This document shows positions 4,795 to 6,217 of a DNA stretch of 57,427 bases, one piece after another. Within the stretch, counting starts at the first letter, position 1, and each line of letters opens with the position of its first letter. The notes beneath the pieces were generated by a model. The model was not told the DNA's origin. It saw nothing but the letters and a program-made list of their open reading frames with translations, and did no database searches. Source of the stretch: Candidatus Pacearchaeota archaeon (lineage in GTDB: Archaea > Nanobdellota > Nanobdellia > Pacearchaeales > GW2011-AR1); contig JAFCEJ010000001.1 in assembly GCA_017609175.1 (NCBI GenBank), forward strand, positions 1 to 57,427, in the 5' to 3' direction. The translations under genes were made by a program, and so were the position numbers.

Positions 4795-5631
4795 ATGAAA
4801 CAAAAAGCAATTGTTATGTTGTCAGGAGGTTTGGATAGTCGGCTTGCTGTTAAATTGATGCAAGAAAGAGGGTTTGAAGTTATAGCTCTGCATTTTAAAC
4901 TGCCTTTTGGAACAGGATGCTGTGATGAGAATTATTCATTTAATTTTTCGCAGTTGGTTGGGATTAAATTAAAAATATTTGACTGTACAAAAGGGGATTT
5001 ATTGAAAGAATATTTGGATATTATTAGAAAACCAAAGTATGGAAGGGGGGCCTGTATGAATCCATGTATTGATTGCAGAATTTTTATGCTGAAAAAAGCA
5101 AGAGAATTTGCTGACAGGCACAATATCAAATATATTGCTACAGGGGAGGTTTTGGATGAGAGGCCTATGTCGCAAAATGCAAAAGCGATGAAAATTGTTG
5201 AGAAAGAATCCGGATTAAATGAGCGATTAATGAGACCCTTATGTGATATTGGAATTAGAGGTAGGAGTAGAAAAAAACAAATTGCTCTTGCCAAAAAATT
5301 TAAGATTTCTTACCCTAATCCTGGTGGGGGCTGTTTGCTTTGTGAGAAAGAATTAAAAGAGAGAATTAAATCTTTGCTAGAAAAAAAGAATGTTGATGAA
5401 CAAGATGTTAGATTGATTAATATAGGAAGGCATTTTGAAAAAAGTAAGATTATTCTCGGTAAAAATAAAAAAGAAAATGAAATTCTTGAAAAAATGAAAG
5501 GTATTAAGATTATTCCTAAACAACCAGGACCTACCGCGCTTATCGAAGATAAAAAATTTATAGAAAAAGCTAAAAAATTAATTCAAAAATATTCAAAACA
5601 TAAAATTACTGAGTTTGAAATTAAAGATTAA
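4795..5631 (+). CDS. PP-loop ATPase, MnmA/ThiI-like tRNA thiolation-type enzyme
   Basis: N-terminal PP-loop SGGLDS; NPCIDCRIFMLKKAREFADRHNIKYIATGEVLDERPMSQ; GGGCLLCEKEL. Confidence 0.8.
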   Translation: MKQKAIVMLSGGLDSRLAVKLMQERGFEVIALHFKLPFGTGCCDENYSFNFSQLVGIKLKIFDCTKGDLLKEYLDIIRKPKYGRGACMNPCIDCRIFMLKKAREFADRHNIKYIATGEVLDERPMSQNAKAMKIVEKESGLNERLMRPLCDIGIRGRSRKKQIALAKKFKISYPNPGGGCLLCEKELKERIKSLLEKKNVDEQDVRLINIGRHFEKSKIILGKNKKENEILEKMKGIKIIPKQPGPTALIEDKKFIEKAKKLIQKYSKHKITEFEIKD

Positions 5632-5632
5632 A

Positions 5633-6217
5633 ATGTGCCGTTTATGTGAAACAAAACCCGTGTATGAATTTACTAATAAAAGAAAATTATGTAAGAATTG
5701 TTTTATAAAATATTTTCAGAAAAAAGTTTTTTTTATTGTGAGAAAATTTGGAATGATTAAACATGGGGATGTTGTTGCCTGTGAGAATAAAATGATTTTA
5801 AAAGATAAACAAGAAGTTTTAGATTTTAGAATAGCTGTTTTAAAATATGTTTTGAAAATGTTTGAGGAAAAAGGAATTATTGAATTGACAAAAGAGAAGG
5901 CAAATAAAATTGCAATACCTTCAACAATTGATTTGGAAGCGAGTGAAATCGTTAAGATTTTAATTAAAAGAAAAGAAGCAGATTTGAAAAAATTAAAACC
6001 TGTTGAAAAAATTAAAGGAAAAACAATAATAAAGCCTCTTTATTTGTTTCTTGATGAAGAAGTTTTACTTTATGCAAAATTGAAGGGGTTGAAATGGCAG
6101 AAACAAAAAGACGAGACAAACAAAATTAAAGGTTTTCTCGACGAACTTGAGAAAAGACATCCTGAAGTAAAAAGGGCAGTTGTTAATAGTTATCTTAATT
6201 TGTATGGAGAAAAATAA
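5633..6217 (+). CDS. Ncs6/TtuA-like protein lacking the PP-loop (Ncs2/Ctu2-like degenerate homologue)
   Basis: N-terminus MCRLCETKPVYEFTNKRKLCKNCFIKYFQKKVFFIVRKFGMIKHGDVVA matches the Ncs6/TtuA zinc-ribbon region; IKPLYLFLDEEVLLYAKLKGLKWQ matches the IKPL...E.E..LYA C-terminal block. No SGGKDS motif. Confidence 0.65.
   Translation: MCRLCETKPVYEFTNKRKLCKNCFIKYFQKKVFFIVRKFGMIKHGDVVACENKMILKDKQEVLDFRIAVLKYVLKMFEEKGIIELTKEKANKIAIPSTIDLEASEIVKILIKRKEADLKKLKPVEKIKGKTIIKPLYLFLDEEVLLYAKLKGLKWQKQKDETNKIKGFLDELEKRHPEVKRAVVNSYLNLYGEK

Follow-up and report, generated by a model that had tools for sequence, protein, structure and literature searches.

The short gene deg, which lies in a 57,427-nucleotide stretch of a Candidatus Pacearchaeota genome (assembly GCA_017609175.1, contig JAFCEJ010000001.1; herein referred to as the window), encodes a degenerate protein of NcsA/TtuA type, and its product is likely to be the non-catalytic subunit of a heterodimeric NcsA/TtuA-type tRNA 2-thiolase whose catalytic partner, cat, is encoded in trans. 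A sequence-only reading of the locus had proposed a two-component thiolase in which a degenerate Ncs6-like scaffold serves the product of the adjacent PP-loop gene, thio. The degenerate Ncs6-like protein and an Ncs2-like arrangement remain the best reading; however, thio is probably not the catalytic subunit, given eight genomes that encode deg and no thio, and gene adjacency probably led to the wrong partner being named. The features concerned are as follows:

4795..5631, + strand: thio, 278 aa, with SGGLDS at residues 10-15 and a ThiI/MnmA-like core; neighbour of deg, not regarded as its obligate partner.
5633..6217, + strand: deg, 194 aa, a degenerate NcsA/TtuA-family protein and proposed non-catalytic (Ncs2-like) subunit.
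5636..5701, + strand: N-terminal CxxC...CxxC zinc-finger arm of deg (Cys 2, 5, 20, 23), missing from cat.
5765..5800, + strand: position expected for SGGKDS in deg, approximate and taken from the alignment; the PP-loop is absent.
6029..6082, + strand: the IKPLYLFLDEEVLLYAKL block of deg, conserved with NcsA/TtuA in the alignment.
6146..6202, + strand: the C-terminal helix LEKRHPEVKRAVVNSYLNL of deg, conserved with NcsA/TtuA in the alignment.
G000:C2:83644-84462: cat (L073), on the contig of the window, outside the window and ~77 kb from deg.

The two open reading frames are as first described, with the SGGLDS of thio intact and a single base between its TAA and the ATG of deg (5633). Translation likewise confirmed a deg protein of 194 residues with the N-terminal CxxC...CxxC region and the IKPL block (beginning at residue 133; LEKRHPEV begins at residue 172) and no SGGKDS. 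The losses in deg go beyond the PP-loop to the Fe-S site (both the CxxC and the third cysteine), the histidine of GHNxDDE and the C-terminal zinc finger, short of which the protein ends. Indeed, the features of an active enzyme (the SGGKDS PP-loop, three Fe-S cysteines and GHNxDDE) are absent from all deg sequences aligned. Some homologues (L013, L016, L020, L022, L024, L025) have lost the cysteines of the arm and retained the arm itself. Several class-level deg proteins (L212, L215, L219 and others) carry a recurring DDGT/DDGS motif at the PP-loop position and IPWNLDDE where TGHNLDDE would stand, a pattern which suggests that the remnant of the loop serves a conserved function.

The assignment of deg to the NcsA/TtuA family follows from its profile matches together with the PDB matches of its structure model, and the likeness is beyond chance. 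Against TtuA models, deg alone scored E 9.5e-8 (NF049949) and about 4e-5 (PDB 3vrh/5mko), and a profile of 29 deg homologues matched TtuA at 1.2e-23 and NcsA at 2.1e-19. The AlphaFold2 model of deg (pLDDT 93.5, pTM 0.89) found TtuA or NcsA in all of its 17 best Foldseek matches in the PDB (such as 5mkq, E 2.2e-11, TM 0.77, and 6scy, E 4.6e-10), in keeping with the Ncs6/TtuA relationship read from the sequence; the next match was the lysidine synthetase TilS. What deg shares with NcsA, TtuA and Ncs6 is the fold, the N-terminal finger arm, the KPL block and the C-terminal helix, and its relationship to thio is confined to the PP-loop fold. No Pfam or NCBIfam model names the deg family at the model cut-offs, and no CTU2 model appeared among the Pfam matches of deg (up to E 1) or of the 29 homologues (E 0.01).

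The deg family is more widespread than the window, taken from a 497-kb, 88% complete assembly, would suggest. Short homologues occur in 25 of the 56 genomes sampled from the family of the window, a broader profile added short deg-like proteins from many further families of the class, and the close named homologues stand in records labelled Pacearchaeota, Nanoarchaeota and, once, Woesearchaeota. The deg proteins form one clade relative to NcsA (96 SH-aLRT), a grouping to be read with caution on account of several long branches. That deg is a pseudogene or an assembly artefact, as its shortness relative to NcsA might imply, has next to no probability: the homologues are open frames of 165-237 aa with conserved residues in dozens of genera, and the fold is predicted with confidence. 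In one 387-aa frame (L253:4174-5334, genome G211) a deg-like domain is followed by a C-terminal domain that, judged by eye, resembles an M23-type peptidase; whether a fusion or an artefact of the frame, the arrangement is uninformative as a pointer to a partner of deg.

A genome search with the TtuA family model identified cat, which has the hallmarks of an active enzyme, namely SGGKDS, CAICG, GHHLDDE, CPC and a C-terminal finger. It has no N-terminal zinc-finger arm, as only 27 residues precede SGGKDS, compared with about 50 in full-length NcsA. The losses in deg and cat are complementary, to judge from their aligned sequences: deg has kept the arm, and cat the active site and C-terminal finger. 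In a column-by-column comparison of 35 arm-less cat proteins with 27 deg proteins, the conserved arm columns (window residues 2, 10, 20 and 24) were retained at 0.78-1.0 in deg and at 0-0.31 in cat, whereas the SGGKDS, Fe-S Cys, GH and C-terminal Cys columns were retained at 0.94-1.0 in cat and at 0-0.2 in deg, with the exception of one lysine column (0.48 in deg). Repeated independent loss of the arm was considered as evidence and dropped: arm-less proteins fall essentially into a single clade of the NcsA tree (3 changes, about one main loss), an independent-pairs test had no power, and the complementarity is therefore not replicated by independent losses. Full-length NcsA proteins of family f4 (L257, L260-L263) have kept the arm and lost its zinc-binding cysteines, as have some deg proteins.

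The genes deg and cat are unlinked and occur together. Among the 56 genomes sampled from the family of the window, 24 encode both, 2 encode one alone and 30 encode neither (agreement 54/56); the corresponding figures for deg and thio are 22, 8 and 26 (agreement 48/56), all tallied by hand, an E below 1e-20 being required for thio. The p-values computed from this tally take no account of shared ancestry and are given no weight here. Across the class, an intact NcsA is present in 28 of the 30 genomes that have a short deg. The association is not without exceptions, such as three genomes with an arm-less cat in which deg was not detected (G009, G059, a single-contig assembly, and G080). In about 19 sampled genomes deg accompanies an arm-bearing NcsA, and the order includes lineages with an arm-bearing NcsA and no deg, so that deg is not universally needed. 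Some of the 30 genomes of the window's family (f1) that have neither deg nor cat are 90-95% complete, and such genomes may have lost this thiolation altogether.

The proximity of thio accounts for the alternative in which deg is the scaffold of an MnmA/ThiI-like enzyme and the thiolase is built from two PP-loop families, which we regard as improbable. In about 24 distinct loci the two genes share a strand and lie no more than about 1 kb apart, the family tally of 22 genomes with both and 8 with a single gene is in its favour, and the PP-loop of thio is intact and accompanied by two invariant CxxC pairs (91-94 and 180-183). The pair is conserved in many relatives but not in others: at nine named loci thio is absent and deg lies between the same flanking genes. 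Other flanking genes, such as a membrane protein gene and a gene for a tryptophanyl-tRNA synthetase-like protein, are conserved as well, and the adjacency is therefore part of a general synteny. Ten deg genomes that have no adjacent thio, a set that partly overlaps the genomes sampled earlier, were searched: eight had no thio match anywhere (E 1e-10), and a catalytic NcsA/TtuA-like protein (cat) was found in all ten. The eight genomes, all with cat, rule out thio as an obligate partner, and class-level deg genomes (G076, G079, G085, G086, G087, G088, G092) similarly encode an NcsA-family enzyme and no close thio. Moreover, thio carries its own predicted RNA-binding domain, a C-terminal NFACT-R_2. 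The best matches of its structure model are the [4Fe-4S] LarE and TrmU, and it shares the fold of the MnmA/TrmU, ThiI and LarE PP-loop sulfurtransferases; it differs from them in this added domain and belongs to another subclass. No paper describing the NFACT-R_2 and CxxC architecture was found in the open-access literature. Probably thio acts alone, thiolating another RNA site or substrate.

It is also unlikely, if a little less so, that deg is an NcsA-derived zinc-finger protein that binds RNA or has a regulatory role on its own, outside the thiolase, or a tRNA-presenting factor shared by thio and cat. Such a role would suit a protein that has lost every catalytic residue, has kept its zinc arm and is found beside arm-bearing NcsA in many genomes of the class. 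A structural partner nonetheless accounts better for the near-perfect co-occurrence with NcsA and for the C-terminal helices and IKPL block that deg has kept, and a heterodimeric archaeal NcsA/TtuA-type enzyme, a variant of the known thiolases, is in our judgement the probable reading.

Thiolation of U34 is described as the task of a two-protein complex in eukaryotes and of a single NcsA in archaea (PMC10067955). The known NcsA is a stand-alone homodimer, each chain of which comprises an N-terminal arm, a PP-loop/[4Fe-4S] core and a C-terminal finger, and an AlphaFold model of Ctu1/Ctu2 superposes on this homodimer (PMC10067955). Ctu2 lacks the cluster cysteines and has kept its N- and C-terminal zinc sites, and the movable terminal zinc domains have been proposed to act as a clamp on the anticodon loop (PMC10067955). 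The archaeal proteins resemble eukaryotic Ncs6/Ncs2 (CTU1/CTU2) in pairing an active PP-loop/[4Fe-4S] subunit with a homologue that has no active site and a preserved zinc-finger site; indeed, deg is an Ncs6 homologue without PP-loop or Fe-S cysteines in a genome that also encodes an active NcsA. They differ in that the putative catalytic partner in this clade has no N-terminal arm, that no E1/Urm1-type carrier was detected in the genome of the window, and that deg (about 165-225 aa) is much smaller than Ctu2 and has lost the C-terminal finger that Ctu2 keeps. Because this finger is missing and no CTU2 model matches, we do not class deg as an Ncs2; the likeness proposed here is functional and implies no descent.

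Relative to archaeal NcsA (such as that of Methanococcus maripaludis, PDB 6scy), deg and cat share fold and homology, and cat keeps the PP-loop, three Fe-S cysteines and C-terminal finger; the known enzyme, however, has all of these parts in each chain, whereas here they are split between two. TtuA (tRNA m5U54 2-sulfurtransferase; PDB 5mkq, 3vrh, 5b4e) is the best structural and profile match for both proteins and is complete in a single chain, unlike deg, which has no active site, and cat, which has no N-terminal LIM-like arm. A description of an archaeal Ncs2-like protein or of a DPANN NcsA was not found in the open-access literature.

If the pairing of deg and cat is correct, the division into active and dead subunits occurs in archaea too and is not a feature of eukaryotes alone. 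We lean, with some reserve, towards a broader proposal: that in a class-wide DPANN lineage (Nanoarchaeota/Pacearchaeota and relatives) NcsA is an obligate heterodimer with a miniature pseudo-enzyme as one of its subunits, that the split of the homodimer arose in archaea independently of or before eukaryotic Ncs6/Ncs2, and that one clade went on to an arm-less catalytic chain dependent on the N-terminal finger of its partner. With chains of about 270 and 190 residues, such a small archaeal pair could also be a tractable model for the role of the dead subunit; recombinant human Ctu1/Ctu2 resisted purification (PMC10067955).

We hypothesize that deg replaces the second NcsA protomer and that labour is divided between the chains, with cat contributing the PP-loop, the three Fe-S cysteines and the C-terminal finger, and deg the arm and the C-terminal helices. 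The arm of deg would help to hold the tRNA, most likely by its anticodon loop at U34, at the single active site of cat, which would adenylate the uridine and then transfer sulfur from its own [4Fe-4S] cluster. With somewhat better than even confidence we take U34 to be the target nucleoside, a choice preferred to U54 because thiolation there is known from thermophiles; a tRNA-Lys(UUU) gene lies about 5 kb from cat. The target may be another nucleoside, since cat is closer to the U54 enzyme TtuA (198 bits against the TtuA model and 138 bits against the NcsA model) and no longer carries the NcsA motif DEGIxGYR. The two arm-bearing NcsA proteins of relatives that were scanned had the NcsA model as their best match. 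In the arm-less cat proteins (L066-L090, L223-L237) and near relatives, DLxxGxYS or DAxIGxYT stands in place of DEGIxGYR, a replacement hinting at altered substrate contacts, and a DLGIGxFS-like form occupies the same position in L061/L062.

In the 88% complete assembly from which the window derives, ThiF (E1) had no match and a ThiS/Urm1-type carrier no significant one, apart from a sub-threshold ThiS match within a 762-aa frame. Urm1/SAMP-type sulfur delivery was set aside on these grounds, and direct supply by a desulfurase, or by free sulfide, is therefore the likelier route. The source would probably be the NifS/IscU pair of the cat operon, which encodes an ArsR-type regulator, a NifS/IscS-type cysteine desulfurase and a NifU/IscU scaffold. 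The grouping of cat with NifS/IscU is seen in other genomes as well, and in one of them (L109:3303-4877, genome G028) the NifU/IscU scaffold of the cat operon is interrupted by an intein with Intein_splicing and LAGLIDADG_3 domains.
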